Origin: Achatina immaculata
Lineage: Eukaryota > Mollusca > Gastropoda > Stylommatophora > Achatinidae
DNA length: 64,000 nt
Direction of reading: 5' to 3'
Assembly: GCA_009760885.1 (NCBI GenBank)
Contig: CM019696.1
Span: 42,950,221 to 43,014,220, forward strand
Positions within the stretch are counted from its first letter, which is position 1. Each line of letters begins with the position of its first letter. Below are positions 1 to 64,000 of the stretch, piece by piece. Made by a program: the position numbers and the translations under genes. Under the pieces are notes generated by a model. That model was not told where the DNA came from. It searched no databases and worked only from the letters and a program-made list of their open reading frames with translations.

Positions 1-452
1 TCTCCTAGGATAGAAGGCTCCCCCTCCTAGGATAGAAGGCTCCCCCTCCTAGGATAGAAGGCCCCTCTCCTAGGATAGAAGGCCCCTCTCCTAGGATAGA
101 AGGCTCCCCCTCCTAGGATAGAAGGCTCCCCCTCCTAGGATAGAAGGCCCCCCTCCTAGGATAGAAGGCCCCCCCTCCTAGGATAGAAGGCTCCCCCTCC
201 TAGGATAGAAGGCTCCCCCTCCTAGGATAGAAGGCTCCCCCTCCTAGGATAGAAGGCCCCCCTCCTAGGATAGAAGGCCCCCCCTCCTAGGATAGAAGGC
301 CCCCCTCCTAGGATAGAAGGCTCCCCCTCCTAGGATAGAAGGCCCCTCTCCTAGGATAGAAGGCTCCCCCTCCTAGGATAGAAGGCTCCCCCTCCTAGGA
401 TAGAAGGCCCCCCTCCTAGGATAGAAGGCCCCCCCTCCTAGGATAGAAGACC
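1..452. repeat. Minisatellite, ~23 bp unit
   Basis: About 20 head-to-tail copies of a 22-24 bp unit built on CTCCTAGGATAGAAGG followed by a C-rich spacer of variable length. The array runs off the left edge of the window. Most copy-to-copy variation is in the number of Cs and in CTCC versus CCCC. No coding link was seen. Confidence 0.97.
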
Positions 453-974
453 CTCCAGCTTTTGACATTGCACACCTGTCAATAGGTGGAGGTGAGATCT
501 TGGCCTGGGGCAGCGCTGAGCTGTTCGGGATGGTGGATGGATGGAGACACAGAGATCACCTGTGGGGATAGGGAAAGTCTGGTGGAAATCGATGAGTCCA
601 GGACGTGACAAGCCTATGGGTCTCTACAACAATGGCTATCAGAATGAGGCGAACAAAGTAGCCAGAAGACTATAGGTGGCGGGGAATGGACATCGTTGAA
701 GCACCATCAGATCCCTCATCTCAAGGTCGGAGTGTCTCTGTGAAACTGTCTCAAAGCTGTCGGACGAACCGGTGTTGCACTTGGGGCCTGACCTCAGCTT
801 CTCACTGGAAAGGCCTCCTGAGTATGAAAGAAAGAACAAAACCCCCAAAATATGAAAATGCTAGAAACAAAAGGAAACCCATTCGAGCCCGAACGTCGCC
901 TGGTAAAAGGCCCGAGCCAGGTTGTTCGCCCCCCCCCCCAGGCTACCCTGAGCGAAGAATCAGCTACGGGGGGG
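453..974. other. No recognisable gene; C and G homopolymers
   Basis: I see no feature with support here. There is an 11-base C run at about 929-939 and a 12-base G run at 968-979, either of which can cause consensus errors. The short open frames over 639-1100 are not recognisable upstream of about 975. The segment may hold the 5' end of the Jockey-like element that follows. Confidence 0.5.
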
Positions 975-1520
975 GGGGGCACACTAGACATTCTTAAAAT
1001 CAACATTTCTAGACTTAGGCCAAAGGCCTCGGAATTAAGCAGACAGCTGAAAAAAGGTCAACATCCATACTGCGATCGTACAAGAAACCCTTCCATATGA
1101 AAAAGATCACTCAGTGCCTGGATACACCATGTACAAATGTGAATCAAGTAAATGTAGGGGTATTGCCACACTCTTGAGAAATGACATCCAAGGAGAAGTT
1201 AAAAACAGAAAGTGCAATGAGAATGATAGCCAAGAGATAACAGTATGACATGATGGACTGTGGTACACTCTGTATAATGTTTATTGTCCCCCAAATTCTA
1301 AAAGTCAAAACAACATACAGATATGCAGAAAACTATCATTGCAGGAGATTTTAATGCACATCTACCATCACTAGGATACAAAGACTGAAACCCTATGGAA
1401 AACAACACTGAAGAGCTACCTGACCTCACAACTGTCTCAGCAGACATCCACAACGATTGTACTATGAGAGCGCTTGATGACATAGGAAGCGACCATCGTC
1501 CTAAAGACCACACAAAGCAG
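975..1520 (+). pseudogene. Jockey-like LINE, broken endonuclease domain
   Basis: Reading all three forward frames gives an ordered AP-endonuclease-like domain of a Jockey-type ORF2. It starts with KINISRLRPKASELSRQL (the usual 'wNcrGLrpn..EL' start), then RGIATLLRNDIQGEV, WYTLYNVYCPPNSKSQ and IIAGDFNAHLPSLGY (the GDFNAH catalytic block), and ends near GSDHRP (the SDH block). At least two frameshifts and two stops break it, and no reverse transcriptase follows. The enzyme would nick target DNA for retrotransposition; this copy is dead. It could be the same family as the reverse transcriptase remnant at 54966, but the two do not overlap, so this cannot be tested here. Confidence 0.75.
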
Positions 1521-1603
1521 AATGTCAGACGGGCCTGCCTGCCCAATTCTTAACCCTTTTGAAATAAAGATCAATCAATCAATCAATCAGTCAGCAAGAC
1601 TTC
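1521..1603 (+). mobile_element. L2/CR1-like LINE, extreme 3' end
   Basis: About 80 bp matching the ends of the two L2-like fragments at 12910-12990 and 18300-18376. It carries the shared GCCTGCCTGCCCAATTCTTA block, AATAAAGAT, and an (ATCA)n tail. It is a severely 5'-truncated insertion between the Jockey-like endonuclease remnant and the Tc1-like remnant. Confidence 0.75.
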
Positions 1604-1812
1604 AGCTCATAACGTGATCACAAAATATGGAGATGCTGGTGATTTCAGTGATCAGAGGAGAAGTGGACATCCCTGGAAAACAACCCCACATGATGATAAT
1701 ACCACACGGCGAATTGTTATGCCTGCTAGCTAGGAGTTTGCGCATTAAATGTTAAAAGACAATCTGGTAACTCATATGACAGTGCACAGATGCTCATTTT
1801 TTCATGGTTGAT

Positions 1813-1990
1813 GGCGCCCCATGCCGTAGATCAAAGGCTGTGAAGGACTACCTGACGTGGCGCCCCATGCCGTAGATCAAAGGCTGTGAAGGACTACCTG
1901 ACGTGGCGCCCCATGCCGTAGATCAAAGGCTGTGAAGGACTACCTGACGTGGCGCCCCATGCCGTAGATCAAAGGCTGTGAAGGACTAGG
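1813..1990. repeat. 46-bp tandem array inside Tc1 coding sequence
   Basis: Four nearly identical copies of a 46-bp unit beginning GGCGCCCCATGCCGTAGATC. In the transposase frame the first unit encodes GAPCRRSKAVKDYLT, the segment around the second catalytic Asp of Tc1 transposases. 46 is not a multiple of three, so each copy shifts frame. Confidence 0.93.
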
Positions 1991-2087
1991 ACCAAAATGA
2001 CTGCTTGACTGCCCAAGTAACAGCTCAGACCTCATGCCCACAGAGAACTTGTAGACCCTCCAAGGGGATAGGCTGGCAGACAAGCCG

Positions 2088-2575
2088 CCATCACATTCCC
2101 GAGCTTTGACTGGAGTAATAAAGTAGGTTTGGTGCAGTTAACTTCCATGTGACCACTGGCACATCTCTAACTGATAGCATGTCACATCACATTCCGGAGC
2201 TTTGACTGGAGTAATAAAGTAGGTTTGGTGCAGTTAACTTCCATGTGACCACTGGCACATCTCTAACTGATAGCATGTCACATCACATTCCCGAGCTTTG
2301 ACTGGAGTAATAAAGTAGGTTTGGTGCAGTTAACTTCCATGTGACCACTGGCACATCTCTAACTGATAGCATGTCACATCACATTCCCGAGCTTTGACTG
2401 GAGTAATAAAGTAGGTTTGGTGCAGTTAACTTCCATGTGACCACTGGCACATCCCTAACTGATAGCATGTCACATCACATTCCGGAGCTTTGACTGGAGT
2501 AATAAAGTAGGTTCAGTGCAGTTAACTTCCATATGACCACTGGCACATCCCTAACTGATAGCGTGTAACATCACA
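2088..2575. repeat. 96-bp tandem array at Tc1 C-terminus
   Basis: Five copies of a 96-bp unit; the motif GAGCTTTGACTGG starts at about 2101, 2197, 2293, 2389 and 2485. In one frame the unit reads ALTGVIK.VWCS, resembling the Tc1 C-terminal 'L..aIKevW' segment, so it probably grew out of the transposase gene just upstream. Later copies are more diverged (GTTCAGTGC for GTTTGGTGC). Confidence 0.95.
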
Positions 2576-2760
2576 CTCTATCTGTTATAAACAACAAATG
2601 TGGCCATACCAGTGGCTTTTTGTTCACAGGAGTGTAAATATTCCTCCGCTGTGTCAGTTTTTTTCGTTAGTCACATATACATATTCAGATTTGGATTACT
2701 TGTTTCTGTAGAACCTGGAATTTCAAGACAATGACAATCTTAAACTTTTGCAAGTGACTG

Positions 2761-2801: not shown

Positions 2802-2802
2802 A

Positions 2803-3158: not shown

Positions 3159-4083
3159 GATAAGGGGACCGTCAGGGATGCATATTGTCGCCGTACTTAT
3201 TTAACTTGTATGCTGAAAATATAATGAGGAATGTTAGAGAAGATGCAGATAAAGAATATTACGATGCCATAACAATTGAAGGTTATGATATACCAGAGAT
3301 TAGATATGCTGATGACACAGTATTACTGTCAACAACACAAAAAGGAATTAAAAAACTAATTATGTCAGTCCGTAAGAACAGCGAAGAGCAAAACCTTTAT
3401 CTTAATGTAAAGAAAAAATTAAATTGATGACAAATGACAAAATAAATAAGGCTGCTGAAGTGTATATCAATAAGGATAAATTAGAAGAGGTGGAAAGTTT
3501 TGAATATTTGAATCTTTACTAACTAATAATGGAGATACAAGGAGGGAAATTAAAAGGAGGACATCTACCGCTCTTCAGAAAGTAAAACAACGAAATAAGC
3601 TGTGAAAAGGAACAGACAGAACTACAAAATAAGATTTTTAAGGGCATGCATCTTTCTCATCGCAACATATGCCTGTGAGACCTGGACACTTAACAAAACA
3701 GCTGAGAAACGCGTAAATGCCTTTGAATGCAAATGCTACAGAAGAGATCTTCAAATATCATGGACACAAAAAATGAACAAATATATCCATACTACAAGAA
3801 CTTACTACTGAAGAATGTAGAGTAGCAAGGAAGATTAAACACAGAAAACTTAAATATTTTGGGCATATCATACGTCATGATAATCTAGAGAAGATCTTCT
3901 TGGAAGGGTACATAATGGAAAAAAGAAAGAGAGGAAGATCAAGGCGAAGATGGGTGCAAGGCATCGTTGATAATCTGTGAATAGACACATCAGCAGCAGG
4001 GCATCTTGCTTACAACCGAGAGGCCTACAGGAGAGCTGTTAGGGAGGCAAAGTTCAGCAATAGACATGCAAATAACTGACTGA
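3159..4083 (+). mobile_element. RTE-like LINE family B, 5'-truncated (copy 1)
   Basis: Starts inside the reverse transcriptase (degraded QGVRQGCILSPYLFNLY), then an open frame at 3185-3427 with NIMRNVRED and the catalytic RYADDTVLLS block. After a frameshift, 3602-3811 carries the C-terminal TYACETWTLNKTAEKRVNAF segment. The end (GHIIRHDN, then KRGRSRRRW) leads to a (CTGA)n tail at about 4072. Frameshifts at ~3427 and ~3520 make it non-functional. Confidence 0.85.
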
Positions 4084-4152
4084 CTGACATGGATGATATT
4101 CAACAAAAACATACAGGACATAGGAAAACATAAAATATAAATTCCCATGAAC

Positions 4153-5077: not shown

Positions 5078-5097
5078 CTGACATGGATGATATTCAA

Positions 5098-12237: not shown

Positions 12238-12335
12238 AGCACAAACAACTAACCAGCACAAACAACTAACCAGCACAAACAACTAACCAGCACAAACAAC
12301 TAACCAGCAAAGACAACTAACCAGCACAAACAACT
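12238..12335. repeat. 17-bp tandem array inside L2 coding sequence
   Basis: Five full copies plus a partial of AGCACAAACAACTAACC, lying where the L2-like ORF2 runs from LQKPAVKLISNKDQAQTT to the RIKILTLKNRF block. The array is absent from the second L2 fragment's visible part, which starts just after this point. Confidence 0.95.
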
Positions 12336-13971
12336 TATCATCGCAAACGTATCAAAATACTGACTCTTAAGAACAGGTTTCTCTTCAACAAAGCCAAGTT
12401 TGTTCATCAAATTCTTTCACAGAGTGCTCCGCCTTATCTATAAAACATTTACATTTAGCACAAAGTGTAGCCAACATTTAAATAACACATGTCTTTCAAA
12501 ACCTAGACTTGATCTTTACAAGAAAAGCTTTATTTATTCGGCTGCTCATCTTTGGAATACCCTTCCATCCTGTATAAAAAATATAAACTATACTCCTTCC
12601 TACAACTACAAACGTTCCCACTATCTATTTGATGTCGACTACATGCCTCCATGATTTATAAAACTTAAAAGGTATTTTAGACTGCTCTTACAGACACCGA
12701 ATTCAGTTAATTGTTTATTCTGGACAGTCCGAAATTTTGTTTGGTAGATAGTCATTTATATGTGTATGTGGTTACTTTCTGTACTGAGTACATGGATAAG
12801 AGCGTAACGTAAATATTATATTTTATTTTATGTCTCTCAGATTTCCAATGTTAGTTATATTGGTTATATGAGCAGCATATTTGTAGAATGTCTGGAACAG
12901 AGTGAAAATTGTATGATAAAGGGCAGACTGACAGACGGGCTTGCCTGCCCAATTCTTAACCCCTTTGGAAATACAGATCAGTCAATCAGTCAGTCACAAA
13001 GGCTCTCTGGAAAGCGATCTAAGTAACTGTGCGGATAATGGCTTTTAACACTCATGTTATAGTCAAGCTTGTTGCAATGAAAGAGCATATCCTCTATTAA
13101 CTGTGTGTAGTTGTCTGCCTTCTTGTTGCCAAGAAAGCTTTTCTGAAGAACAAATGAAGACCAGGCAACATGATTCGATTCCCAAAGACATACAAAACAG
13201 TGATACTGTGTGTAGCCATTTTGTTGACCAAGAAGAAAATTAATCATCTTCTACAAAAATCACCCATTGATGTTCTTGGTAATTTATCTTTTCCAAAACT
13301 AAAGAGATGGCCTTGTACTCTTCTTTCATCCTAGTGGAATGACCGATTGAAATAGAATCATATTTTTTGCCGTTATTTAAAAGAACACATTTCAAACAAC
13401 GTTTTGAACGGTCGATGAAAAGACGCCACTCACTTGGGTTATATTCTGAAAGACCAATTTTCTTCACAAGGTTTCCGATGTCGTTGCAGAATACTAAGTT
13501 GTTGTCTTCGGTAAAGAATGACACAAATCCTCTCCTCTCCTTCGATAAAATGTCATTTTCGTTCCAGGCTGAAGTACATTCTATTCCTTTAGTCTGGAGG
13601 CAAGCAATTCAGAAGACTCCTTTGAAAGATTTAAGTCCCTGATCAGATCATTCAATTCATTCTGATCAAAGCGATCACTATGTGAAATTGTTTGGAATTC
13701 ACTGTCACTGCCCCCACTTTCTTTAGCTTGTGAGATATCAGACATGCAAGACTCATCCTCTGAGAGCTGGGGTAGTTCAAGGAAAGGTGGAACGGGTACA
13801 AGATCTGAGTGCGGAACAGGTCTCCTGGCTGACGGTAGATCAAGGCCACTTGTCACGATTATTTCCACTGATGCCTATGATATTAACAATACAAAAATAA
13901 AAATCATCGAAGAAGTGGTTTTTGTCCCCCCCCCCCTCTCCTCCACGCACACACTACTGGTTCTCCAAATT

Positions 13972-14180
13972 TCAGGCAGCTTCTCTTTCCATTTGTCCAC
14001 TGGTACAAATGCTCAGTACAAATTTCAGGCAGCTTCTCTTTCCATTTGTCCACTGGTACAAATGCTTAGTACAAATTTCAGGCAGCTTCTCTTTCCATTT
14101 GTCCACTGGTACAAATGCTCAGTACAAATTTCAGGCAGCTTCTCTTTCCATTTGTCCACTGGTACAAATGCTCAGTTCAA
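13972..14180. repeat. 53-bp tandem array inside the broken gene
   Basis: Four copies of a 53-bp unit (CAAATTTCAGGCAGCTTCTC start). On the minus strand the unit reads TEHLYQWTNGKRSCLKF, the segment after the VCE(I)C zinc-like motif of the uncharacterised family. The gene resumes beyond the array with KFGEPVV and NHFFDDFYFC. 53 is not a multiple of three. Confidence 0.95.
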
Positions 14181-14360
14181 ATTTCACATACAATATGAGA
14201 AGCCCATGGCTTATCTTCATCTCCAAGCTTGACACCAAAATAACCTACTTTTGGTCTTTTTACAAACTCAGAAATAGATTTCCTACTTGCTTTCAGTGTG
14301 TACTCCCCACAAATATAGCAAAATACATCGGGAAGATTCAGGCAGCTCCGTCTTAGCCAT

Positions 14361-18444: not shown

Positions 18445-18725
18445 TACGAGGTGTATTAAAAAATATAACCAACCTTTAAAATAGTGCCAACTGGTACTTA
18501 GGGCAAGAAACAAGTTTTTGGCTGTAACACAGTCGTTGTCTGATGACCAAAAACGTCAGCGTGTTGAGTATGCAAAAACATCAGCCTGTTGAGTATGAAA
18601 AAACATCAGCGTGTTGAGTATGCAAAAACGTCAGCGTGTTGAGTATGCAAAAACATCAGCGTGTTGAGTATGCAAAAACGTCAGCGTGTTAAGTACGCAA
18701 AAGACATCAAAACGTGTCGCATACA
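18445..18725 (+). mobile_element. Mariner fragment with a 25-bp array
   Basis: Begins with a mariner-type end (TACGAGGTGTATTAAAA after a TA-type site), like the element at 30711. 18538-18570 translates to SDDQKRQRVEYAK, a mariner transposase block (compare MSDDQKHHHVDYAK in the element at 21596). This block is repeated about six times as a 25-bp array (CAAAAACATCAGCGTGTTGAG core) to ~18700. No further transposase follows. Confidence 0.7.
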
Positions 18726-30710: not shown

Positions 30711-31235
30711 TACGAGGTGCATAACAAACACACAAAAAATTAGAGAACTTTTAAAACAATGCTAACCGATAGAAGGGGCGCGGCGCAGCTACAGCACCCA
30801 TCTAGCAGCAGGTCCTGACAACAACCTGCCATTTGCTCTGTTCTGCTAAGAACATTCGTTGTCCAGCTACATTCACTGAGGCCAGGCGCGATGCTGACCA
30901 CATCAGCCTCTGGTGTGCCGACAGCTCAAGGAAAATATGACAGGATTACCCTTACCTTTTACATCCGCTGAGGTGAGCACATTCACAAGCTATTCGTTGG
31001 ATACCTGAAGAACACCATGCGTGGTTTATGTGAAATGTTGCTGCAGACTTGGTCAAAGTCTTACAGGGACGTGACAGTTGTTCCACCAAGCATATAGGGG
31101 ATGACCCTATAAGCAGTGCTATAAGTGTTTTAAAGATGGCAGAACGTTGGTAGGGCAGGACGACCTTACACATCAACAGATGACGACATTGTCCAGAGAG
31201 TTCGTGCTGTGATTCGTGGAAATCATCATTTAAAT

Positions 31236-31619
31236 GTCTGAGAGGTTGCTGACCTAGTTGTCTGAGAAGTTGCTGAACTAGTTGTCTGAGAAGTTGCTGA
31301 CCTAGTTGTCTGAGTGGTTGCTGACCTAGTTGTCTGAGAGGTTGCTGACCTAGTTGTCTGAGAAGTTGCTGACCTAGTTGTCTGAGAAGTTGCTGACCTA
31401 GTTGTCTGAGAAGTTGCAGACCTAGTTGTCTGAGAAGTTGCTGACCTAGTTGTCTGAGAGGTTGCTGAACTAGTTGTCTGAGAGGTTGCTGAACTAGTTG
31501 TCTGAGAAGTTGCTGACCTAGTTGTCTGAGAAGTTGCTGACCTAGTTGTCTGAGAGGTTGCTGAACTAGTTGTCTGAGAAGTTGCTGACCTAGTTGTCTG
31601 AGAAGTTGCTGACCTCGTG
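31236..31619. repeat. 24-bp array from mariner codons (V-stop-EVADLV)
   Basis: Sixteen copies of a 24-bp unit GTCTGAGAAGTTGCTGACCT plus AGTT. In the transposase frame each unit is V, stop, E V A D L V; the family form is V R E V A D. Every unit carries the TGA, consistent with a CGA to TGA change before amplification. Confidence 0.95.
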
Positions 31620-31705: not shown

Positions 31706-31998
31706 GACTGGCAATCAGTAAGAGAACTGGCAATTAGTAAGAGAACTGGCAATCAATAAGAGAACTGGTAATCAGTAAGAGAACTGGCAATCAGTAAGAG
31801 AAGTGGTAACCAGTAAGAGAACTGGAAATCAGTAAGAGAAGTGGCAATCAGTAAGAGAACTGGCAATCAGTAAGAGAACTGGTAATCAGTAAGAGAACTG
31901 GAAATCAGTAAGAGAACTGGTAATAAGTAAGAGAACTGGCAATCAGTAAGAGATACTGGTAATCAGTAAGAGAACTGGCAATCAGTAAGAGAACCATG
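31706..31998. repeat. 19-bp array within the mariner
   Basis: About fifteen copies of CTGGCAATCAGTAAGAGAA with variants (GGTAATC, GGAAATC). It begins at the transposase segment reading LLTGNQ/FADWQS and ends just before VEISQEL. 19 is not a multiple of three. Confidence 0.95.
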
Positions 31999-32067
31999 TT
32001 GAAATAAGTCAGGAACTGTTTGCCAGTGCACATGGCAATGGAATCTTTCTTGAGACCCTCATAACAG

Positions 32068-35000
32068 GAGATAACATGTGGGGCCATCTCTAAGATGTTA
32101 AAAACAAGACAACAGGAGATGAGTCGTGGGGCCAAGGCTATGACGTTAAAACCAAGATAAAATGAGATAAGTTGCTGATTTAAGGCCACTATTTTAAAAC
32201 CAAGATTACAACAGATGACACGTGGGTCCATGGTTATGATGTTAAAAGTAAGATAACATGAGATGAGACGTATGTTCATGACTATGATGTTAGAAAATAA
32301 AACAGGAGATAAGATGTGGTTCCGTGACTATGATGTTATAACCAAGATAAACAGAAGATAAAACGTGGGTCCATGACTATGATGTGAAAACCAAGATAAC
32401 AATAGATGAGACTAGGCTTCATGGCTTTGATATTAAAAAGAAGAAAACTGGAGACAAGATGTGGGTCCATGGCTATGATATTTTAAAAAAGATAACGGGA
32501 GATACCATATGTGTTTATGGCTATGATGTTAAAACCAAGAAAACAAGAGATACGATGTGGATCCGTAGCAATGATGTTAAAAGCAAGAAAAAAGGTGATA
32601 CGATGTGTGTCCATGGCTATGATGTTAAAACCAAGTTAACAGGAGATAATATGTTGGTCCATGGCTATGATGTTAAAACCAAGATAACAGGAGATGATAT
32701 GTTGGTCCATGGCTATGATGTTTAAACCATGTTAACAGAAGATAAGATGTGGGTTCGTGTCTCTGATGTTAAAAGCATGAAAAAGGACATAGGATGTGTG
32801 TCCATGGCTATGATGTTAAATCAAAGATAACAGGAAATGAGACGTGGGTCCATGGCTATTATGCTATACTTAAGATAACACTAATTGAGACATGGGTTCA
32901 TGTCTATGATGTTAAAACCAAGAAAAGAGTAGATAAGATCTGGATTAATGGCTGTAATATTAAAACCAAGATAACAGCATATGAGATATAGGCCCATGGC
33001 TCTGATATTAAAATCAGGTTACCAGGAGACAAGACGTTGGAACATAACTATGATGTTAAAACAAAGATACCAGAAGATGAGACATAGATCCATGGCTATG
33101 GTGTTAAAACAAAGATACCAGAAGATGAGACATAGATCCATGGCTATGATGTTAAACCCAAGATACCAGAAGATGAGACATAGATCCATGGCTATGATGT
33201 TAAAACCAAGAAAACAGGCGATATGACGTGGGTCCATGGATAAGATGTTAAAATCAAGATAACAGTAGATAAGATACTGGCCCATGGCTATGATCTTAAC
33301 ACCAAGATAACAGGAGATAAAGAGTGGGTATATGACTATGATGTTAAAACCAATATAACAGGAGATGAGATATGGGTACATGGATATAATATTAAAACAA
33401 AGATCTTAGGAGATAAGATCTGTACAAAGGGCTATGACGTTAAAATCAAGAAAACAGGATATAAATGTGCATCCATGGCTATATTGTTAAAACCAAGATA
33501 AAAGCAAATAAGATATCATCATCATCATCAGCTGACGTGCCGACTGCCGTTGGCTATTATGCTTCTACAGAGCACACAATCCTTCATGCAGGCCATCAGC
33601 TCAATTTGTGATCTCCTCTCACACCATCCCATCAGACTGTCCAGTATCATTTATCGTGGTCTTCCTTTTGATCTTCTTCCTTTTATTTTTCCTAATGTCA
33701 TAATATTTTCAAATATTATAAGATATGGGATCATATTTATGATGCTGAAAACAGATAACAGAAGATAAGATCTGGGACCGTTTCTATGATGTTAAAACCA
33801 AGTTAACAGGTGATAAGACGTGCGTCCAAGGCCATAATATTAAAACAAAGATAATAGGAGATGAGATGTGGGTCCATGGCTACGATCTTAAAATCAGGAT
33901 AATGTGGAATGAGACGTGGATCCATTACTGTGATGTTAAAACCAAGATAACAGGAGATGAGACATATGTCCATGACTCTGATGTTAAAACCAAGATAATA
34001 AGACATGAGGTCATTATGTTAAAACTAAGAACACAATACATGACACGTTCGTCCATGGATATGATATTAAAACCAAGATAACAGGAGATAAGATGTGGGA
34101 CCACTGACTATGATGCTAAAACCCAGATAATAGGAGATGAGACATGGGTCCAATATTATGATGTTAAAACCAAGATAACGGGAGATTAGGCGTGGGTCCA
34201 TTCCTATGATGTTGAAACCAAGATAACAGGAGATGAGATGTGGATCCATGGCTATGATGCTAAAACCAAGATAACAGGAGATGAGATGTGGATCCATGGC
34301 TATGATGCTAAAACCAAGATAACAGGAGATGAGATGTGGATCCATGGCTATGATGCTAAAACCAAGATAACAGGAGATGAGATGTGGATCCATGGCTATG
34401 ATGCTAAAACCAAGATAACAGGAGATAAGACATTGATCCATTACTATCATGTTAAATCCAAGATAACAGGAGATGAGAAGTGGATACATGACTATGATGT
34501 TAAACCCAAGATAACAGGAGATGAGAAGTGGATACATGGCTATGATGTTAAACCCAAGATAACAGGAGATGTGAAGTGGATATATGACTATGATGTTAAA
34601 CCCAAGATAACAGGAGATGAGAAGTGGATACATGGCTATGATGTTAAACCCAAGATAACAGGAGATGAGAAGTGGATACATGACTATGATATTAAACCCA
34701 AGATATAAGGAGTTAAAATGTTGATTCATGGATATGACGTTAAAACTAAGATAACAAGAGATATGACCTGGGTCCATGGCTATGATGTTAAAATAATGAT
34801 AACACTAGGTGAGACATGGGTCCACGGCTACGATGTTAAAATAATGATAACACTAGGTAAGACATGAGTCCACGGCTAACAGGAGATGAGACATGGGTCC
34901 ATGGCTGTTATGTTAAAACAAAGATAACAAGAACTGAGAAATGGGTCCATTGTTATGATGTTAAAACCAAGATAACAGGAGATGTGACGAAGGTCCATGG

Positions 35001-35265
35001 TTATGATGTTAAAAGTAAGATAACAGGAGATCAGACGTGAGTTCATGGATATGATGTTAAAAGTAAGATAACAGGAGATCAGATATGGATCCATGGCTAT
35101 GATGTTAAAAGTAAGATAACAGGAGATCAGATATGGATCCATGGCTATGATGTTAAAAGTAAGATAACAGGAGATCAGACATGGATCCATGGCTATGATG
35201 TTAAATCCAAAGTAACAAGAGATAAGATGTGTGTCCATGGCTCTGGTGTTTGAACCAATATACAA
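32068..35265. repeat. 48-bp array of the mariner catalytic motif
   Basis: Roughly 60 copies of a 48-bp unit encoding the 16 residues ITGDETWVHGYDVKTK or variants, the mariner block with the first catalytic Asp (family form TGDETWV.GYD.ETK). Copies at 34205-34440 are nearly identical; those at 32100-33400 are diverged with indels. Because the period is 16 codons, a plus frame at 34238-34708 and a minus frame at 34067-34777 stay open. Upstream (LETLITGDNMWG) and downstream (TNIQSS.W) codons show the array sits exactly within the gene. One LINE A fragment interrupts it. Confidence 0.95.
33517..33717 (-). mobile_element. LINE A 3' fragment inside the 48-bp array
   Basis: Starts with CATCATCATCATCAGCTGAC and matches the LINE A 3' end (GTTGGCTATTATGCTTCT, GATCTCCTCTCACACCATCC). 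Flanks ATAAGATAT at 33508-33516 and 33718-33726 form a 9-bp target duplication. Only ~200 bp of the element is present. Confidence 0.93.
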
Positions 35266-38760: not shown

Positions 38761-39665
38761 ATGCATCTCCAACCTAGATGACAAAAGCACAGAAGGACTC
38801 AACAGGCGAGAGCTCAATGGGACCAAAGCAGCAACAGTGTTGAGTAATTAACCAAGAGAGTAATTTCAACATCAAGACAACAGTTTTATTAATGGGAAGA
38901 TGGAGGATGACTGATGAGGATGGCAGACTCAACAAACTACATAAAACTGCCTACACTCCCCGGCAAGAACTATGTTTGCCATGTGGGGAGGGATTGTTAA
39001 AAAAAACTAAGGCCTACAGAAGGACCACAAATCAATCACTAGCAACAAAATGCCATAATTACTGGTGTTAGAAAAAACACAGCAACCGACTTCCCACATG
39101 TCGACAAAACACATCTTTCAACTACTAAGCAACTATCTGCCCAATCAGTCTACAAATGCCAGCAACAAAACCTGCTCTGTCCTAATAAGGACAGCTGACA
39201 TTAATCTCTACATCAGACAAATTAGCTGGAATGCTCTACTATCAACATAGTCATGAAAAATCAAACACATGATTCCAAAATCATAAAAAAATCCTTATCC
39301 TAATATTATCCTCAATAATGAACACTTCATCATCCTAACAATCCTAATAATAATGATGCTTTTTTCTCTTTTATAACTCACATTTTCTCTAAGAGTCTCT
39401 TCCTTCTAGTCCTTGCTCTAGCAAAGCTTACTCTGACTGTTCATTGTTTCACTTCTGCTTGTGCTGTCTGCTTCTTCCAGTGTGTTCAGTCTCCGTGCCT
39501 TTATGTGCAACTTTACAGTTGTTAATTTTGGCAGTGCAGGCTCTAACCTTTAACCCCTAAGTTCTCAAATAGATTATCTCTGATCTAGTCAACTCACGTT
39601 TTCTTTAACTAGCGTATTTCCTCTTACCACAACTATCGTTTATTTTAACAAAATCACTGTCACAC
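38761..39665. other. No recognisable gene
   Basis: Single-copy-like. A plus-strand phrase (38890-39000: GRWRMTDEDGRLNKLHKTAY) is open but unfamiliar. The rest is AT-rich without motifs. Confidence 0.45.
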
Positions 39666-39667
39666 AA

Positions 39668-40701
39668 TGACACTAGCAAATACTGGAAGTAGAAACACTG
39701 ACACCAGCAATATAGGAAGTATAAACACTGACACCAGCAATGTAGGAAGTAGCAACACTGACACCAACAATATAGGAAGTATAAACACTGACACCACCAA
39801 TATAGGAAGTATAAACACTGACACCACCAATATAGGAAGTATAAACACTGACACCAGCAATATAGGAAGCAGAAACACTGACACCAGCAATATAGGAAGT
39901 ATAAACACTGACACCAACAATATAGGAAGTATAAACACTGACACCAGCAATATAGGAAGCAGAAACACTGACACCAGCAATATAGGAAGTAGAAACACTG
40001 ACACCAGCAATATAGGAAGTAGCAACACTGACACCACCAATATAGGAAGTATAAACACTGACACCACCAATATAGGAAGTATAAACACTGACACCAGCAA
40101 TATAGGAAGTATAAACACTGACACCAACAACATAGGAAGTAGAAACACTGACATCAGCAATATAGGAAGTAGCAACACTGACACCAGCAATATAGGAAGT
40201 ATAAACACTGACACCAGAAATATAGGAAGTATAAACACTGACACCAGCAATATAGGAAGTATAAACACTGACACCAGCAATATAGGAAGTATAAACACTG
40301 ACACCAGCAATATAGGAAGTATAAACACTGACACCACCAATATAGGAAGTATAAACACTGACACCAGCAATATAGGAAGTATAAACACTGACACCAACAA
40401 TATAGGAAGTAGAAACATTGACACCAGCAATATAGGAAGTAGCAACACTGACACCACCAATATAGGAAGTATAAACACTGACACCACCAATATAGGAAGT
40501 ATAAACACTGACACCACCAATATAGGAAGTATAAACACTGACACCAGCAATATAGGAAGTATAAACACTGACACCAACAATATAGGAAGTATAAACACTG
40601 ACACCAACAATATAGGAAGTATAAACACTGACACCAGCAATATAGGAAGTATAAACACTGACACCAACAATATAGGAAGTATAAACACTGACACCAGCAA
40701 T
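39668..40701. repeat. 30-bp minisatellite, main block
   Basis: About 34 copies of a 30-bp unit with AATATAGGAAGTATAAACAC. Ten codons per unit (NIGSINTDTS) give a 350-codon plus frame (39667-40719) and a 364-codon minus frame; both exist only because no frame of the unit has a stop. No initiation context or domain argues for coding. Confidence 0.96.
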
Positions 40702-40926
40702 CTCTCTCTCTCTCTCTGAACCTTAAGTGCCCAGGGCACATGGGGCTTCCGCAAGGATTTTCCACAAATGCCTGTCTTTCGCCTTTTTTTCTGCTCTTGC
40801 CCAGGTGAGCCCTCTATTGCTCAACATCCTTTCTGTTGTTCTTCTCCATGTCTCTTTTGGTCTACCCTTACTTCTGTTCCCCTGTGGTGTCCATCTTAGT
40901 GCTATTTTTGGTAGTGAGTTGTCAGT
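40702..40926 (-). mobile_element. LINE D 3' fragment inside the 30-bp array
   Basis: Matches 19853-20071: (CT)n then GAACCTTAAGTGCCCAGGGC. Minus-strand TDNSLPKIALRWTPQGNRSK, GRPKETWRRTTERMLSNRGL. CACCAGCAAT occurs at 40692-40701 and again at 40927-40936, out of array register, so it is a 10-bp target duplication. Confidence 0.92.
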
Positions 40927-41125
40927 CACCAGCAATATAGGAAGTAGAAACACTGACACCAGCAATATAGGAAGTAGAAACACTGACACCAGCAATATAG
41001 GAAGTAGAAACACTGACACCAGCAATATAGGAAGTAGAAACACTGACACCAGCAATATAGGAAGTAGAAACACTGACACCAGCAATATAGGAAGTAGAAA
41101 CACTGACACCAGCAAATACTGGAAG
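40927..41125. repeat. 30-bp minisatellite, right block
   Basis: Six copies with AATATAGGAAGTAGAAACAC, nearly identical to each other and distinct from the TATAAACAC form that dominates left of the insertion. Confidence 0.95.
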
Positions 41126-41264
41126 TAGAAATAAGGACATCAACAAACACTGACGCAACAAATATGAACGCTCAATATGTTGCCGTAATAAATATTGACA
41201 TCACATAAAAAAAAATAACTCAGCACTGAACTTCCTTTGGGCTGTTCAAATTGTTTGTGTGTGT

Positions 41265-46154: not shown

Positions 46155-47300
46155 AATGACCAGAAAAATGAGCAGTTTAATGTAAACATGAATAATGAAG
46201 GACCACCAATACTGGAAATGGAAGTAAGAAATGCATTCAGACAAATGTAGGCACGGAAGGCTCCACGACATCACAAGAGAAATGATCACAGCACTAGGAG
46301 ATATCATCACAGAAAAAGTAATAAACCTCCTAAATATGATCTATGACACAGGACATATACCATCAGATCTATGACACAGAACATACACCATCAGATCTAT
46401 GACACAAGACATATACCATCAGATCTATGACACAGAACATACACCATCAGATCCATGACACAGAACATACACCATCAGATCTACGACACAGGACATACAC
46501 CATCAGATCTATGACACAGAACATACACCATCAGATCCATGACACAGAACATACACCATCAGATCCATGACACAGAACATACATCATCAGATCTATGACA
46601 CAGAACATACACCGTCAGATCCATGACACAGAACATACACCATCAGATCTATGACACAGAACATACACCGTCAGATCCATGACACAGAACATACACCATC
46701 AGATCTATGATGCAGAACATACACCATCAGATCTATGACACAGAACATACACCATCAGATCTATGACACAAGACATATACCATCAGATCTATGACACAAG
46801 ACATACACCATCAGATCTATGACACAGAGCATACACCATCAGATCTATGATACAGAACATATACCATCAGATCTATGATGCAGAACAGATATCATCAGAT
46901 CTGTGATGCAGAACATACACCATCAGATCTATCCAAATCAGTTTTCACTGGATTTAGAAAAAGAGCTGGAACAAGATAATGTGGACAACATTGCATGATC
47001 AGTTTTACTGAGCCACATCACAAAAATATTATTAAAAATCATTAACCTGAGAATATGATAAAGGAGAATATGAATAAGAAAAAAAATGAAATCACAGCAT
47101 AGCAATGTGGTTTTGTTGAAGAAAAAAAAACAAGAAAAAGAGGCAGACCACGTGAAACTCTAAAGAGGACATTGATAAGAAAGGCCAGATTAACAGACAT
47201 AAAATCCTTTGATGAGGTTGAAAAGTTCGCCGAAAACAGGAAAAATTGACGAACTACCTTACGAGCCCTATGTGACGTTTAACGGCACGGGAAGGATATC
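46155..47300 (+). mobile_element. LINE family C, internally deleted, with a 28-bp array
   Basis: Starts GPPILEMEVRNAFRQM (linker to RT), then ITALGDIITEKVINLLNMIY, then the array, resuming at 46930 with SKSVFTGFRKRAGTR and SHITKILLKI. It then jumps to the C-terminus at 47140 (RKRGRPRETLKRTLIRKARL, SFDEVEKFAENRKN) and ends with the family C tail GATATCAGATATAAGATATA. The polymerase core is deleted. Confidence 0.85.
46340..46930. repeat. 28-bp array from LINE C codons
   Basis: About twenty copies of a 28-bp unit ATCTATGACACAGAACATAC plus ACCATCAG. The founding copy encodes IYDTGHIPSDL, part of the RT N-terminal region ('IY.tG.iPsDl.kS.fi.lPKk'); the gene resumes with SKSVF after the array. The period is not a multiple of three. 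Confidence 0.95.
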
Positions 47301-54184: not shown

Positions 54185-54489
54185 TTTATGTTTATTGGTC
54201 GTCCTTTTAGTTGGACTAGCAGGACTCGGTCCGAGATATTCAAATATCCTACAATTGTCCTTGCTGTTTGTTCGTCAAATATTATTCCTACTCCTCGTTC
54301 ATGTCTCTCACTTCCTGAATATATTATTGTATATTTATCAGAGTTTATCTATCCTGCACCTGTCCATCTAACTTCACTCACTACTAAAATGTTGATCTTC
54401 ATCGCTTCCATTTCCCTCTTTACATTTTCTAATTTTCCAGCTTACAATAAAGTTCTAACATTCCATGCTGCTATTTGTTAGTTTTGCCA

Positions 54490-54958: not shown

Positions 54959-55194
54959 GTTCAAAAATGAAACATCACACAGTATTTGCAGATGATGTAC
55001 CAATGTGGACATCAGATCAAAACAAAATCGTAGCCACCAGCAGAATTACAAGACGGAATCAGAAAGTGAGAAGACTGGACCAAAAGATAGTTAAAGACTA
55101 TTAACGAGGAAAAAAACATTGCACACAATCTTCCCACAATCAAACAAAATTCAAATCATATACCTAACAATTCATGGACACAAACTTCCAATGG

Positions 55195-58100
55195 AAGACA
55201 GTCGAACATACTTAGACATCACTTCAGAACACAGTCCAACATACTTAGGGATCACTTCAGAACACAGTCCAACATACTTAGGCATCACTCCAGAACACAG
55301 ACCAACATACTTAGGCATCACTCCAGCAAACAGTCCAGCATACTTAAGTATCACTCTATGACACAGTCCAGTATACTTAGGCATCACTCTAGAACACAGT
55401 CTAGCATACTTAAGCATCATTCTATGACACATTGCAACATAATTAAGCATCATCTAGAACACAGTCCAACATACTTAGGCATCACTCCAGAACACAGTCC
55501 AACATACGTAGGCATTCCTCTAGAAGACAGTCCAACAAACTTAAGCATCACTCCAGAACGCAATCTAACATACGTAGGCATCACTCTATGACACAGTCCA
55601 ACATAACTAAGGCACCACTCCAGAACACAATCCAACATACATAGGCATCCCTCTAGAAGATAGTCCAACAAACTTAAGTAATACTCCAGAACACAGTCTA
55701 ACATACGTAGGCATCACTCTATGACATGGTCCAAAATACTTAGGCATCACTCCAGAAAACAGTCCAACAAACGTAATCATCATCATCATCATCATGTGCA
55801 GTGCCGACTGGCGTTGGCTATTATGCTTCTCCAGAGTACGCGATCCTTCATGCATGCCATCAGGTCAGTTGGTGATCTCCTCTCATACCATCCCGTCAGA
55901 CTGTCCAGTATCATTTCTCTTGGTCTTCCTCTTGATCTTCTTCCTTCTATTTTTCCTGTTGTTATAATATTTTCAATGCCCCCTCTTCTCATTACATGTC
56001 CTATGAAAGTACATTGTCTCTCTCTTATCTTTTTGACAAGGTTTTTTTGTCTCTCCAGCTCTTCTCCTACATTCTTCATTAGTTATTTTTGCTGTCCAGG
56101 GGATTCGCAACATTCTTCTAATAAACCACATTTATTATGCTTAAACAAACGTAAGCTTCAATAAAAAACACAATCCAACATACTTAGACACCACTGGATA
56201 AAACAGTCTAACATTCTTTAGGCATTCCTCTAGAAGACAGTCCAACATACTTAAACAACACTCCAGAACACAATATAATATACTTAGGCATCACTCTATG
56301 ACACAGTCCAACATGCTTAAGCAACAGCTCAGAACACAGTCCAACATACTTAGGCATCACTTTAGAACACAGTCCAAAATACTTAGGCATTACTCCAGAA
56401 CACAGTCCAACATACTTAGACATCACTCAAGAACACAGTCAAACATACTTAGGCATCACTCTAGAACACAGTCAAATATTCTTAGGCATCACTTCAGAAC
56501 ACAGACCAACATACTTAGGCATCACTCTATGACACAGTCCAACATGCTTAAGCAACAGCTCAGAACACAGTCCAACATACTTAGGCATCACTTTAGAACA
56601 CAGTCCAAAATACTTAGGCATTGCTCCAGAACATAGTCCAACATACTTAGACATCACTCAATAACACAGTCAAACATACTTAGACATCACTCTATGACAC
56701 AGTCCCACATACTTAGTCATTGGTCTATGACACAGTCCAACTTACTTAGGCATCACTTCAGAAAACAGTCCAACATACTTAGGCATCACTCTATGACACA
56801 GTCCAACATACTTAGGCATCACTCTATGACACAGTCCAACATACTTAGGCATCACTCTATGACACAGTCCATCATACTTAGGCATCACTCTATGACACAA
56901 TCCAACATACTTAAGCAACAGTTCAGAACACAGTCAAACATACTTAGGCATCACTCCAGAACACAGTCCAACATACTTAGGCATCATTCTATGACACAGT
57001 TCAACATACGTAGGCATCACTCTATGAAATAGATCAACATGCTTAAGCATCACTTTAGAACACAGTCCAACATACTTAGGCATCACTTCAGAACAAAGTT
57101 CAACATACTTAGGCATCACTTCAGAACACAGTCCAACATACTTAGGCATCATTCTATGACACAATTCAACATACGTAGGCATCACTCTATGAAATAGATC
57201 AACATGCTTAAGCATCACTTTAGAACACAGTCCAACATACTTAGGCATCACTTCAGAACAAAGTTCAACATACTTAGGCATCACTTCAGAACACAGTCCA
57301 ACATACTTAGGCATCATTCTATGACACAATTCAACATACGTAGGCATCACTCTATGAAATAGATCAACATGCTTAAGCATCACTTTAGAACACAGTCCAA
57401 CATACTTAGGCATCACTTCAGAACAAAGTTCAACATACTTAGGCATCACTTCAGAACACAGTCCAACATACTTAGGCATCACTCTATGACACAGTCCAAC
57501 ATACTTAGGCATCACTCTATGACACAGTCAAACATACTTAAGCATCACTCTATGACACAGTCCAACATACTTAAGCATCACTCCAGAATGCAGTCCAACA
57601 TACTTAGGCATCACTCCAGAATACAGTCAAACATTCTTAAACATTCCTCAAAATACGGTCTAACAAACTTAGGCATCATTACAGAACACTGTCTAACATA
57701 CTTAGGAATCACTCCAGAACACTGTCCAAAATACTTAAGCATCACTCCAAAATACAGTCCAACATACTTAGGTATCACTCCAGAACACAGTCTAACATAC
57801 TTAGGCATCACTCCAGAACACAGACCAACATACTTAGACATCACTCTATGACACAGTCCATCATACTTAAGCAACAGTTCAGAACACAGTCAAACATACT
57901 TAGGCATCACTCCAGAACACGGTCCAACATACGTAGGCATCACTCTATGACACAGTTCAACATACTTAGGCATCACTTCAGAAAACAGTCCATCATACTT
58001 AGGCATCACTCTATGACACAGTCTAACATACTTAGGCATCACTCTATGACACAGTCAAACATACTTAGGGATCACTCCAGAGCAGTCCAACATACTTAGG

Positions 58101-59262
58101 CATCGCTCTATGACACAGTCCAACATACTTAAGCATCACACCAGAACACATTCCAACAAATTTAGGCATCACTGCAGAATACAGTGCAACATATTTTGGC
58201 ATAACTCTAGAAGACAGCCCAACATAATTAGGCATCACTCTACAAGACACCCCAACATACTTAGGCATCACCCTACAAGACATCCCAACATACTTAGGCA
58301 TCACTCTATGACACAGTCAAACATACTTAAGCATCACTCCAGAACACAGTCCAACATACTTAGGCATCACTCTATGACACAGTCCAATATAGTTATGCAT
58401 CAATCCAGAACACAATCCAACTTACTTAGGCATAACTCTAGAAGACAGCCCAACACACTTACGCATCACTTTACAAGACAACCCTACATACTTAGGGATC
58501 ACTCCATAACACAGTCCAACATACTTAGACATCACTCTATGACACAGTGTAACATACTTAAGCATCACTCTATAATACAGTCAAAGATAGTTAGGGATAG
58601 AATCAAACATAGTTAGGGATACAGTCAGACATAGTTAGGGATCATTCCAGAACAAAGTATAACATAATTAAGCATTACTTTATGACACAGTCCAACGTAC
58701 TTAGGCATAACTCTAGAAGACAGCTCAACATACTTAGGCATAACTCTAGAAGACAGCTCAACATACTTATGCATAACTCTAGAAGACAGCTCAACATACT
58801 TAGGCATAACTCTAGAAGACAGCTCAACATACTTAGGCATAACTCTAGAAGACAGCTCAACATACTTAGGCATAACTCTAGAAGACAGCTCAACATACTT
58901 AGGCATAACTCTAGAAGACAGCTCAACATACTTAGGCATAACTCTAGAAGACAGCTCAACATACTTAGGCATAACTCTAGAAGACAGCTCAACATACTTA
59001 TGCATAACTCTAGAAGACAGCTCAACATGCTTAGGCATAACTCTAGAAGACAGCTCAACATACTTAGGCATAACTCTAGAAGACAGTTCAACATACTTAG
59101 GCATAACTCTAGAAGACAGCTCAACATACTTAGGCATAACTCTAGAAGACAGCTCAACATACTTAAGCATCACTCTACAAGACAGCCCAACATGCTTAGG
59201 CATCACTCTACAAGACAGTCCAATATGCTTAGACATCACTCTAGAAGACAGCAAAATATACT
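55195..59262. repeat. 33-bp array of the Jockey RT motif SPTYLGITPEH
   Basis: About 110 copies of a 33-bp (11 codon) unit TCCAACATACTTAGGCATCA plus CTCTATGACACAG or variants. Sub-families replace each other along the array: CAGAACACAG at left, CTATGACACAG mixed, and a uniform CTAGAAGACAGCT block at 58685-59160. A ~160-bp higher-order unit is repeated three times at ~57010-57480. Open frames on both strands follow from the 11-codon period. Interrupted by a LINE A fragment. Confidence 0.95.
55777..56143 (-). mobile_element. LINE A 3' fragment inside the 33-bp array
   Basis: Begins with (CAT)n and matches LINE A 3' sequence; minus-strand frame 55792-56079 (RQCTFIGHVMRRGGIENIIT, GRRSRGRPREMILDSLTGWY). 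Flanks AACAAACGTAA at 55766-55776 and 56144-56154 form an 11-bp target duplication. Confidence 0.93.
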
Positions 59263-59588
59263 AAAATATAAAAAAACTAGTAGGGACTACCTAGGTAGTA
59301 AACCGTGGCATACTAAAAAACTAGTAGGGACTACCTAGGTAGTAAACCGTGACATACTAAAAAACTAGTAGGGACTACCTAGGTAGTAAACTGTGACATA
59401 CTAAAAAACTAGTAGGGACTACCTAAGGAGTAAACCGTGACATACTAAAAAACTAGTAGGGACTACCTAAGGAGTAAACCGTGACATACTAAAAAACTAG
59501 TAGGGACTACCTAAAGAGTAAACCGTGACATACTAAAAAACTAGTAGGGACTACCTAAGGAGTAAACCATGACATACTAAAAAACTAG
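59262..59588. repeat. ~60-bp array from the Jockey motif KKLVGTT
   Basis: Seven copies of a unit with AAAAACTAGTAGGGACTACC, TAGGTAGTAAACCGTGACAT and ACT. Reading ACT AAA AAA CTA GTA GGG ACT ACC gives TKKLVGTT, the motif that follows the PTYLGIT block in Jockey-type RTs. The first copy overlaps the end of the 33-bp array. Confidence 0.9.
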
Positions 59589-60292
59589 TATGCCTGCATG
59601 TAAGGTATATGCTTATGTGTGAGGTGTATATTTGTATGTGAGGTGTATCCTTGTATGTGAGGTGTATGCTTGTATGTGAGTTGTATGTCTTTATGTAAGC
59701 TATATGTTTGTATGTGAGGTGTATGGGTGTGTGTGAGGTGTATGTTTGTATATGGGGTGCATGCATGTGTGTGAGGTGTGTGTTTGTATGTGAGGTGTAT
59801 CCTTGTATGTGAGGTGTATGCTTATATGTGAGTTGTATGTCTTTATGTACATATATTTGTATGTGAGGCATATGTTTGTATTTGAGTCTAATGCTTGTAT
59901 GTGAGGTGTATACATGTATGAGGTGCATGTTTGTTTGTGAGGCATATGTTTGCATGTGAGCCATATGTTTGTATGTGAGGTGCATGCTTGTATATAGGCA
60001 TATGTTTGTATGCGAGTTGCATGCTTGTATATGAGGTGTATGACTGAATGTCAGTTGTACCCTTGTATTTGATTTGCATGCTTGTATGTAAGGTGTATGG
60101 TTGTGTGTGAGTTGTTTGTCTGTATGTGGGGTGTATGCTTGTATGTAAGATGTATGGGTGTGTGTGAGTTTTATGTCTGTATGTGGGATATATGCTTGTA
60201 TGTGAACTACATGCTTGTATGTGAAGCTTATGTTTATATGTGAGCTGTATTTTTGTATGTGGGTTGTATGCTTGTATGTGTATACTCTTCAT
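59589..60292. repeat. ~19-20-bp minisatellite
   Basis: About 35 diverged copies of TTGTATGTGAGGTGTATGC, with CT to TT and GG to GT variants. Minus strand is open for long stretches for periodic reasons. Confidence 0.9.
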
Positions 60293-62290: not shown

Positions 62291-62294
62291 TGAA

Positions 62295-62405
62295 AAATGG
62301 AATTTAGCCTGCATTTTTCATGGTTTTTTAACCTTATTTTTTTCATGGTTTTTGGATAACATTTTTTCATGGTTTTTGGACCTTATTTTTTTCATGGTTT
62401 TGATT
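62295..62405. repeat. ~28-bp short array
   Basis: Four copies around TTTTTTCATGGTTTTTGGAC. Confidence 0.85.
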
Positions 62406-62640
62406 GTATGTGGGGTCCAAGATTGAAAACTGACACATGTGGCATGCATACGTTTCTGTGGTTGTATTCATCTGTACGAATGTTTGTGCATGTGTGTATG
62501 TGTGTGCGACCTTGCTGTCCTGGCACTAGTTTTGCTTGACTGATGAATGTGTCAAGTAATTTAAAATATTTTTAGACTTTTTAAACAAGGAACATCCAAC
62601 ACCTGAGATACAACTTTTGTTGTAGCTAGTAAAAGGACTG
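62406..62640. other. No recognisable feature
   Basis: Single-copy-like spacer with TG-rich stretch at 62480-62510. Confidence 0.5.
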
Positions 62641-62659
62641 AAATAACTGGAATATAATA

Positions 62660-63062
62660 CTGCTATATCAAGAACAAATGCAGACAAAGACATATGAAAT
62701 ATAATAATTCTGTAACAAGAACAAATGCAGACAAAGACATATGAAATATAATATTGCTGTAACAAGAACAAATGCAGACAAAGACATATGAAATATAATA
62801 ATTTTGTAACAAGAACAAATGCAGACAAAGACATATGAAATATAATATTGCTGTAACAAGAACAAATGCAGACAAAGACATATGAAATATAATAATTCTG
62901 TAACAAGAACAAATGCAGACAAAGACATATGAAATATAATATTGCTGTAACAAGAACAAACGCAGACAAAGACATATGAAATATAATATTGCTGTAACAA
63001 GAACAAATGCAGACAAAGACATATGAAATATAATATTGCTGTAACAGGAACAAAAATAAACA
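62660..63062. repeat. 47-bp minisatellite with alternating units
   Basis: Eight to nine copies of a 47-bp unit (AACAAGAACAAATGCAGACA, AAGACATATGAAATATAATA, then ATTCTGT or TTGCTGT). The two endings largely alternate, giving a 94-bp dimer period in the left half. Confidence 0.95.
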
Positions 63063-63600
63063 AGTGAGAAAATCACCATTATATTTTGCAAAAGACAAGA
63101 AAGTAACAGACATGGACACAAGCACAAGATCTCTGAGCAAGAAAAAAACTTGGATGCTGATTACTTTCTCACCAGCGAAAAATAACAAGAGTTTTTTCTT
63201 CTTATTTCTTGCAGTCTGCTCCACCATTTTCTGTCTGCAAATTGTGTCAGCATGTGAACATTTTTGTTCTTTGCTGCATCATTGAACTTTCTGATTTAGA
63301 TATACAGACTTTCTGCTCAGACAGATAAATGGCCATGGGATATTTTGTATACACACCATACACACCATGACATAATGCATGACATAATTGCATGACATAG
63401 TGTTTTATATCGACACATTTTTGTGTTGTAAGAAACACAGTAACGTCACGTGCAAAATATGCAAGCACATCATTTCTTATCTGGTGAGAATATCTTATTA
63501 TCAGTTGAAAATGGAATAAAAAAAACAGTTTTCTGAGACAGCAGATTTATTTGAAAAGTGTTTGAGACAACGGAATTGTTTTAGAAATGTTTGAGACAAC
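63063..63600. other. No supported gene
   Basis: A 73-codon plus frame (63064-63285) has a hydrophobic stretch (FFFLFLAVCSTIFCLQIV) preceded by a basic segment, but starts immediately after an array and has no recognisable homology. I leave it uncalled. Confidence 0.45.
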
Positions 63601-63601
63601 A

Positions 63602-64000
63602 CAGACTTCTTCTTTGGTTTTCTTAGCTGTCCATGGTACCTTCAGCATCCTTCTTATGAACCACATTTCCATGGCCTCCATTTCTCGCTGTACTCTCTTA
63701 TTCATAGACCATGCTTCACATCCATAAAACAAAATTAACTCGATGTAACATTTAAGTACTTGGAATCTTGTTTCCATTGATATGGATCTATTGGACAAGA
63801 TGTATCTCATTGTCTAGATTGCTGACTTGGCCTGAGCACGTCTGCTTTTTTATTTCATTGTGACATTTCCCATCAGCTGTTATAACTGTTCCTAAGTACT
63901 TGAATACTATCAACTTGTTTCAGTTCCGTGCCATCGATGTAATGCTACATTTTTGTGGTATTTTTTTTCTTTGAGATGACCATCACTTCAGTCTTCTTTT
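63602..64000 (-). mobile_element. LINE family F fragment, continues past the window
   Basis: Minus-strand frame 63547-63810 with FQVLKCYIELILFYGCEAWS, EMEAMEMWFIRRMLKVPWTA, matching family F at 10567-11013. The 63811-64000 part matches 10975-11150 (LKQVDRFKYL region and upstream). The 3' end is cut at ~63602. The element runs off the right edge. Confidence 0.88.

Follow-up and report, generated by a model that had tools for sequence, protein, structure and literature searches.

Tandem arrays inside old transposon copies of the gastropod Achatina immaculata, probably ordinary minisatellites at high density

A stretch of 64,000 nucleotides from the gastropod Achatina immaculata (GenBank assembly GCA_009760885.1, contig CM019696.1, positions 42,950,221 to 43,014,220, forward strand; the whole stretch is called the window here) carries many tandem arrays, several of which lie in the remains of transposon coding sequence. 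These arrays are probably (at about 0.68, by our own estimate) ordinary minisatellites that were born locally from whatever sequence was present, at a high density, and that pile up in old DNA including old transposons. Several of them began inside a transposon copy, by in situ amplification of internal segments, and transposons look mostly like bystanders of array formation. That transposon motifs can be recognised in satellites does not have to make transposons the cause of satellites; the coding motifs probably draw attention because a reader can recognise them in old DNA.

The observations behind this are the mariner, Tc1 and LINE (long interspersed nuclear element) sites that are empty in other copies, the private units of the arrays in a genome sample, the scarcity of arrays in dispersed copies, and the presence of elements inside arrays. 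From these we infer age as the decisive factor, and duplication followed by slippage or exchange as the mechanism. A single tandem duplication of a short segment (mostly 15-100 bp), with few or no demands on its sequence, would come first, and the duplicate would grow to tens of units by slippage or block exchange and persist for long. With births slow and genome-wide, arrays would gather in old unconstrained DNA, part of which is decayed transposons, and younger dispersed elements would hold few arrays and would insert into arrays.

Array sites in other transposon copies

The assembly is 1.65 Gb in 145 contigs. Tandem repeats were called with Tandem Repeats Finder (TRF), which in the window gives 83 rows covering 34.8% of the sequence. 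An earlier prediction, made from the letters alone and called the original prediction below, had named eleven arrays; all 11 were found by TRF where it had placed them, among 47 window arrays with a period of at least 10. To look for empty sites, each array was collapsed to one unit and other genomic copies were then sought. The genome searches scored the best 40 candidates and favoured unbroken copies, so that the share of empty copies given below is biased upward. Array coordinates are window positions, on the plus strand unless noted otherwise.

The clearest case is a mariner copy with three arrays: a 24-bp array of about 16 units over the VREVADLV segment (31235..31615; mean unit identity 0.95, with no lag effect), a 19-bp array of 15 units (31707..31994), and a 48-bp array of about 67 units over the segment ITGDETWVHGYDVKTK (32061..35250; mean unit identity 0.69). 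Other copies are listed at 38 places, 67-76% identical over the main alignments, and 30 of the 38 cross all three array sites in a single alignment. Five of the remaining eight were read, and the other three show no extra length. Four of the five (L034, L035, L036 and L038) have no array at the site: in L034 and L038 the mariner goes on past it, with deletion or decay, and in L035 and L036 the element ends there. The fifth, L037, has an array of its own (45 bp, 7.6 units) over VYGYDV.TKMQSSQ, which overlaps the window's 48-bp segment in a different register and period, and a second array (45 bp, 2.2 units) downstream. Among 16 aligned copies, namely 12 chosen from the site-crossing ones together with L034, L035, L036 and L038 and leaving L037 aside, no segment is present more than once, and part of the 48-bp segment is missing in L034, L036 and L044. 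The mariner protein relatives that were aligned, 7 of 50 found, are all colinear.

In a similar example, a 28-bp array of 21 units lies in the IYDTGHIPSD segment of a LINE reverse transcriptase (46338..46932). Its site is crossed by 38 of 39 other listed copies with at most about 21 extra bases, and the peptide is colinear with the protein relatives P0008 and P0103. For a LINE protein of the window at least 120 relatives are listed, and those with a named source organism are from the sea slugs Plakobranchus and Elysia. The closest listed genomic relative of the LINE relic (86%; C14:42298056-42299196), 0.7 Mb away on the same contig, has about 711 extra bases at the array site, their content unread. 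In another relative, C2:3949324-3949925, an extra stretch of about 240 bases, likewise unread, lies some 75 bases past the array site.

The third family is Tc1. A 46-bp array of 3.8 units covers the transposase segment DGAPCRRSKAVKDYLT (1812..1988), and a 96-bp array of 5.1 units lies further 3' in the same relic (2089..2575). The 46-bp site is crossed by 37 of 39 other listed copies, with at most about 31 extra bases, and the other two carry the same array (L051 with 9 units, L052 with 23). The region of the 96-bp unit is single in 11 of the 12 copies read, one of which, L061, breaks off near its end; where the window carries the 96-bp array, L060 has one of 45 bp and 2.9 units. Such separate arrays in other copies, at the 48-bp site in L037 and at the 96-bp site in L060, favour local birth.

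The original prediction held that the arrays arose within transposon coding sequence, between codons that are consecutive in the family, and had proposed an alignment of each element to its intact genome-wide consensus. Comparison with other genomic copies bears out an origin within the copy for the mariner and Tc1 arrays and the LINE array at 46338, whose segments occur once, with continuous flanks, in most other listed copies. The consecutive codons fail in one place, as the window's 46-bp array is short, at its right end, of about 8 bases that the relatives have. For the 17-bp array at 12238..12335, in a relic that the original prediction classed as L2-like, one copy (L010:3051-2665, 68%) is empty and continuous. 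The 25-bp array at 18548..18709, with a flank that looks mariner-like by eye, is supported for the left half of its site, the left flank and one unit being continuous at two places and the right flank not. A place inside transposon coding sequence stays unconfirmed, with families read by eye, for three arrays: the 53-bp array in an uncharacterised coding relic (13966..14186; strand unassigned, the by-eye reading being on the minus strand), the 33-bp array of about 123 units over the putative Jockey-like reverse transcriptase segment SPTYLGITL (55194..59251), and the 44-bp array of 7.3 units over the putative next segment of that reverse transcriptase (59271..59590). A Pfam scan of the Tc1, mariner and 13966 relics and four array readings gave no family at the curated cut-off, and a protein search with the Jockey-like flank of the array at 55194 gave no homologue. 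Against solved structures, the Tc1 read-through finds Sleeping Beauty at E 0.077 and the mariner read-through Mos1 at E 0.54. That unit size is indifferent to codon size was confirmed on 173 arrays, whose periods fall 61/61/51 into the three classes modulo 3.

Array density and dispersed repeats in the genome sample

For comparison, random positions were drawn in parts of 20 contigs, which gave 25 stretches of 10 kb on 13 contigs, one of the stretches being short of 3,109 bases. Of this DNA 21.1% is tandem repeat, with 0.35 larger arrays (at least 3 copies and at least 100 bp) per kb. The window is about 1.4 times denser in arrays, with 32 larger arrays against about 22 expected at the rate of the random stretches, and the earlier impression that it is unusual for 64 kb is not confirmed. 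Extrapolation would give several hundred thousand arrays genome-wide. The median array length is 202 bp (173 arrays), and one random stretch, L033, is 75% tandem repeat. Units are almost always private: in the window and the first 20 stretches there are 104 larger arrays, and among the 103 with a period of at least 14 that were compared, six pairs share a unit, five within a locus and one between loci.

Dispersed repeats were defined as BLAST matches between sampled loci, and 90 of 118 larger arrays were assessed, the other 28 having unusable flanks. Both flanks lie in dispersed repeats for 2 of the 90 (in L020 and L023, one family with inherited 88-bp arrays). When masked blocks were planted at random points instead, 32, 28, 27, 23, 27, 26, 24 and 30 of 90 fell inside dispersed repeats, so that the binomial P is 7.5e-12 with arrays treated as independent. 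An earlier version of the test, with 81 arrays, found 3 where 32 were expected, and longer flanks give 2 of 76 at 200 bp, 0 of 61 at 300 bp and 1 of 58 at 500 bp. In 55 kb of LINE and mariner coding matches, 12 larger arrays have at least one flank in the matches, and the sole one counted with both flanks matched is cut by the end of its stretch, in a test that overlooks short flanks such as those separating the mariner arrays.

Elements are also found inside arrays. As an example, a 30-bp array of the window is split into a left half (39664..40701) and a right half (40927..41131) with a shared unit, and between them lies a 225-bp element end with a (CT)n tail, read as LINE (40702..40926; strand unassigned). 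The 10-bp sequence CACCAGCAAT stands at both sides of this element end, as a target-site duplication would give, and seven other near-full-length matches to it are 93-99% identical. The same unit is found on either side of dispersed DNA in L017 (4423/5104) and L021 (127/4268) as well, and unit remnants lie beyond dispersed DNA at L015 and L010, with L028 a doubtful case (35% dispersed). A LINE with arrays as its target was considered and set aside: 4 of 8 near-complete ends lie in or beside arrays, which is not clearly more than the 21% tandem content. Given their scarcity in dispersed copies and the elements inside them, the arrays appear to be older than most dispersed copies, or to avoid them.

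One dispersed family behaves in its own way. Its copies at L013:1439-2125, L020:3740-4386 and L023:588-1266 share arrays of about 88- and 107-bp units, unlike the private arrays elsewhere, and L014:2447-3286 is homologous to this element region, with a 37-bp array at L014:2624-2736.

The recurrent Tc1 segment, array growth and rival explanations

The 46-bp segment of Tc1 was also searched with a query of 100 bases corresponding to two units, scoring the best 40 of 74 candidates. Arrays or more than one unit were found at at least 15 places, the window included. Hits are spaced by about 46 at six of these 15 and near 46 at two more, by 45 at one place and over part of a further one, and by 38 at two; three places have a single hit, giving no period. 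Array loci were read in the window, L051, L052, L063 and L064. The 41-bp period of L064 keeps the 46-bp register, shortened by a small internal loss, and L063 (C22:17637270-17637470) has a 38-bp array over the Tc1 segment with a different junction, which in our reading of the sequence would be a separate birth. On the same contig, 87 kb away, C22:17550514-17550672 shows a hit spacing like that of L063, by duplication or by repeated birth. A control segment of Tc1, starting 63 and ending 17 bp upstream of the unit, gave 40 single hits and no array (best 40 of 77), a comparison that is not fully even, since the unit query follows the register in which known arrays repeat. A hairpin at the site was rejected, as shuffled versions of the 46-bp unit fold equally well (z -0.12).

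Flanks of the three array-bearing copies (window, L051 and L052) are 0.74-0.77 identical to one another and 0.70-0.83 to array-free copies. In a tree of the flanks, the window is joined with L051, its nearest copy (local support 0.73), and L052 is placed elsewhere, on short and hence weak internal branches. The first units have changed from the family at 2, 2 and 3 of 46 bases in these three copies (0.043, 0.043 and 0.065), against flank changes of 0.21, 0.13 and 0.14 and a mean of 0.105 for the same 46 bp in 10 array-free copies. The changes expected are 22 from the copies' own flanks (Poisson P 0.0002) and 14 from the array-free copies (P 0.025). Units on C22 and C3 are 91-98% identical to that of the window, with flanks at 74-77%. 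Unit lineages resident from the start should match the change of their flanks, so the arrays seem to be younger than the copies that hold them; with 138 bases as the evidence in all, this is a lead. The low unit decay looks like inheritance, a hot spot or ectopic supply.

How the arrays grew was studied in 57 arrays with at least 8 full units, by setting neighbour similarity against simulations. One-unit slippage and no star genealogy fits 18 of them, a star and no slippage 22, neither 12 and both 5; block duplication, tested on the low side only, is compatible with all 57. Flat curves of identity against distance had suggested a pure one-burst (rolling-circle) origin, and simulated block duplication yields the same curve; of the 41 arrays that could be tested for linkage between columns of units (16 of the 57 could not), 25 show it at p<0.01, and the one-burst origin was dropped. 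Array growth is therefore mixed. The mariner arrays roughly obey a simple clock, in which the change of the unit consensus plus the change within the array is on the order of the flank change: 0.13+0.03, 0.21+0.04 and 0.08+0.20 in the window against 0.20 in the flank, and 0.09+0.05 against 0.13 in L037.

The idea of coding motifs of transposons as favoured seeds, which a hyperactive process of the slippage or rolling-circle type would amplify, drew on eleven named arrays in one window, and the Tc1 segment, multi-unit at at least 15 places against none of the 40 control places, may be one place that resembles such a seed. As a general rule it is improbable: arrays are common in random DNA, their units are private, 2 (perhaps 4) of 90 lie in dispersed copies against 23-32 of 90 when planted, the 55 kb of coding matches hold one array flanked on both sides and that one is cut, and most listed copies have no array at the mariner and LINE sites. 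There is, on the other side, an even chance that some arrays found at several loci were carried by transposition or segmental duplication and were not born in each copy. The arrays of L051 and L052 have the register and period of the window's, the readable spacings at the 15 Tc1 places are mostly near 46, the flank tree joins the window with L051, extra DNA stands at the array site of the nearby LINE relative, and L013, L020 and L023 share two arrays in one element; yet the flanks of the three 46-bp copies are not clearly closer to one another than to array-free copies, L052 stands apart, if weakly so, and the units do not have the divergence of their flanks that residence since insertion should give.

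That last discrepancy could be accounted for if 46-bp array DNA had moved among Tc1 copies by homology, through gene conversion or reintegrated circular DNA, which would explain first units less changed than flanks and array-free copies, and units on C22 and C3 more alike than their surroundings. We think this rather doubtful, as the comparison covers 46 bp in each of three copies, hypermutation or mixing by conversion could have shaped the flanks, neither a circle nor a conversion tract was seen, and the 38-bp array has a different junction. The broader proposal that the segment is a recurrent amplification site, where arrays younger than their host are born or re-supplied repeatedly by homology-guided exchange, for example with circular DNA, is likewise tentative and on the unlikely side. 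Tandem arrays are in general error-prone in assembly, and an artefact of assembly or sequencing is hardly credible here, where the units of several arrays differ on average by as much as about 30%, the array flanks align colinearly with other copies, and one array contains an element with a target-site duplication.

Some findings sit uneasily with ordinary minisatellites that accumulate with age. The Tc1 46-bp arrays are a misfit, with units less diverged than flanks and the same register at several loci. The strict count of arrays in dispersed copies missed two cases from among 22 arrays with one dispersed flank: at L014:2624-2736 the DNA past the array matches the continuation of the element (z 75-102), and at L031:6895-7400 it does so in 2 of 6 matches (z 7-8), so that the true count is perhaps about 4 of 90. 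The single case with 500-bp flanks, L023:5377-5591, falls inside a dispersed repeat, and 8 of 61 smaller arrays have both flanks dispersed, 6 of the 8 in L013, L020 and L023. "Dispersed", moreover, includes only families that recur within 314 kb. Units match at 93% or more in 30 of 81 arrays, which look young, and none of the 30 has both flanks dispersed; pure accumulation with age would then need continuing turnover within arrays, and the star-like genealogies found for 22 of 57 arrays give no obvious sign of it. At the four births that can be read, microhomology amounts to 0, 2, 2 and 6 bases, too few to prove slippage.

Further features of the window and known systems

A GT-rich array of 2.1 kb with a unit of about 17 bp and a strong excess of G and T on one strand lies at 15229-17369. 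A very common LINE 3' end is present in two 494-bp copies (3593-4086 and 4587-5080) that are 100% identical and 994 bp apart, probably a recent local duplication. On the minus strand, 51735-54274 holds a reverse transcriptase frame of 506 codons beside one of 332 codons, perhaps a young LINE.

Families with many copies offer a natural clock for minisatellites, giving the empty site, the age of the host copy and the birth of the array. In a genome where about one fifth of the sampled DNA is tandem, the birth rate, hot spots and turnover of minisatellites could be measured directly.

Transposon-derived minisatellites are already known, and what differs here is their density and their scarcity in dispersed copies. 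In the account of Ahmed and Liang (2012, PMC3389668), transposon-derived minisatellites are 23% of human minisatellites and about 0.32% of the genome, mostly with two units, and are commoner in younger elements, under filters of a unit above 20 bp and 95% identity. The mariner, Tc1 and LINE arrays are of this kind, with the unit and both flanks in one copy and the segment single elsewhere. As in that account, any part of an element can be involved, most cases appear to be single-locus, expansion is local, at or after insertion, and initiation is mostly unexplained. As to the single locus, 30 of 38 listed mariner copies lack the window's arrays and L037 has a different one, the Tc1 46-bp segment is multi-unit at 15 places or more, and one LINE relative has extra DNA. 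A model cited in the same source places initiation between direct repeats of 5-20 bp around the founding segment, and at the four births mentioned above the bases matching at unit spacing are 0, 2, 2 and 6. Unlike the human case, about 21% of the sampled DNA is tandem by TRF, the arrays have many units and they are scarce in dispersed copies, although the human filters are stricter.

In classical satellites a single family of units forms long arrays at numerous loci. The arrays here differ: those of the sample have private units, and the Tc1 46-bp array is found at several loci, but its arrays that were read are at most about 1.1 kb. The central repeats of the non-autonomous Helentron Cg_HINE in the oyster Crassostrea gigas, as described in PMC7492417, are a further likeness, being satellite-like arrays dispersed in a mollusc genome. 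The oyster arrays are parts of the element and cluster across loci with the same unit, whereas here there is one between-locus pair among 103 arrays. Satellites derived from open reading frames, according to the review in PMC9659126, show that a coding segment can be the monomer and that any part of an element may serve; those satellites are named and multi-locus, and the arrays described here are mostly private and short.

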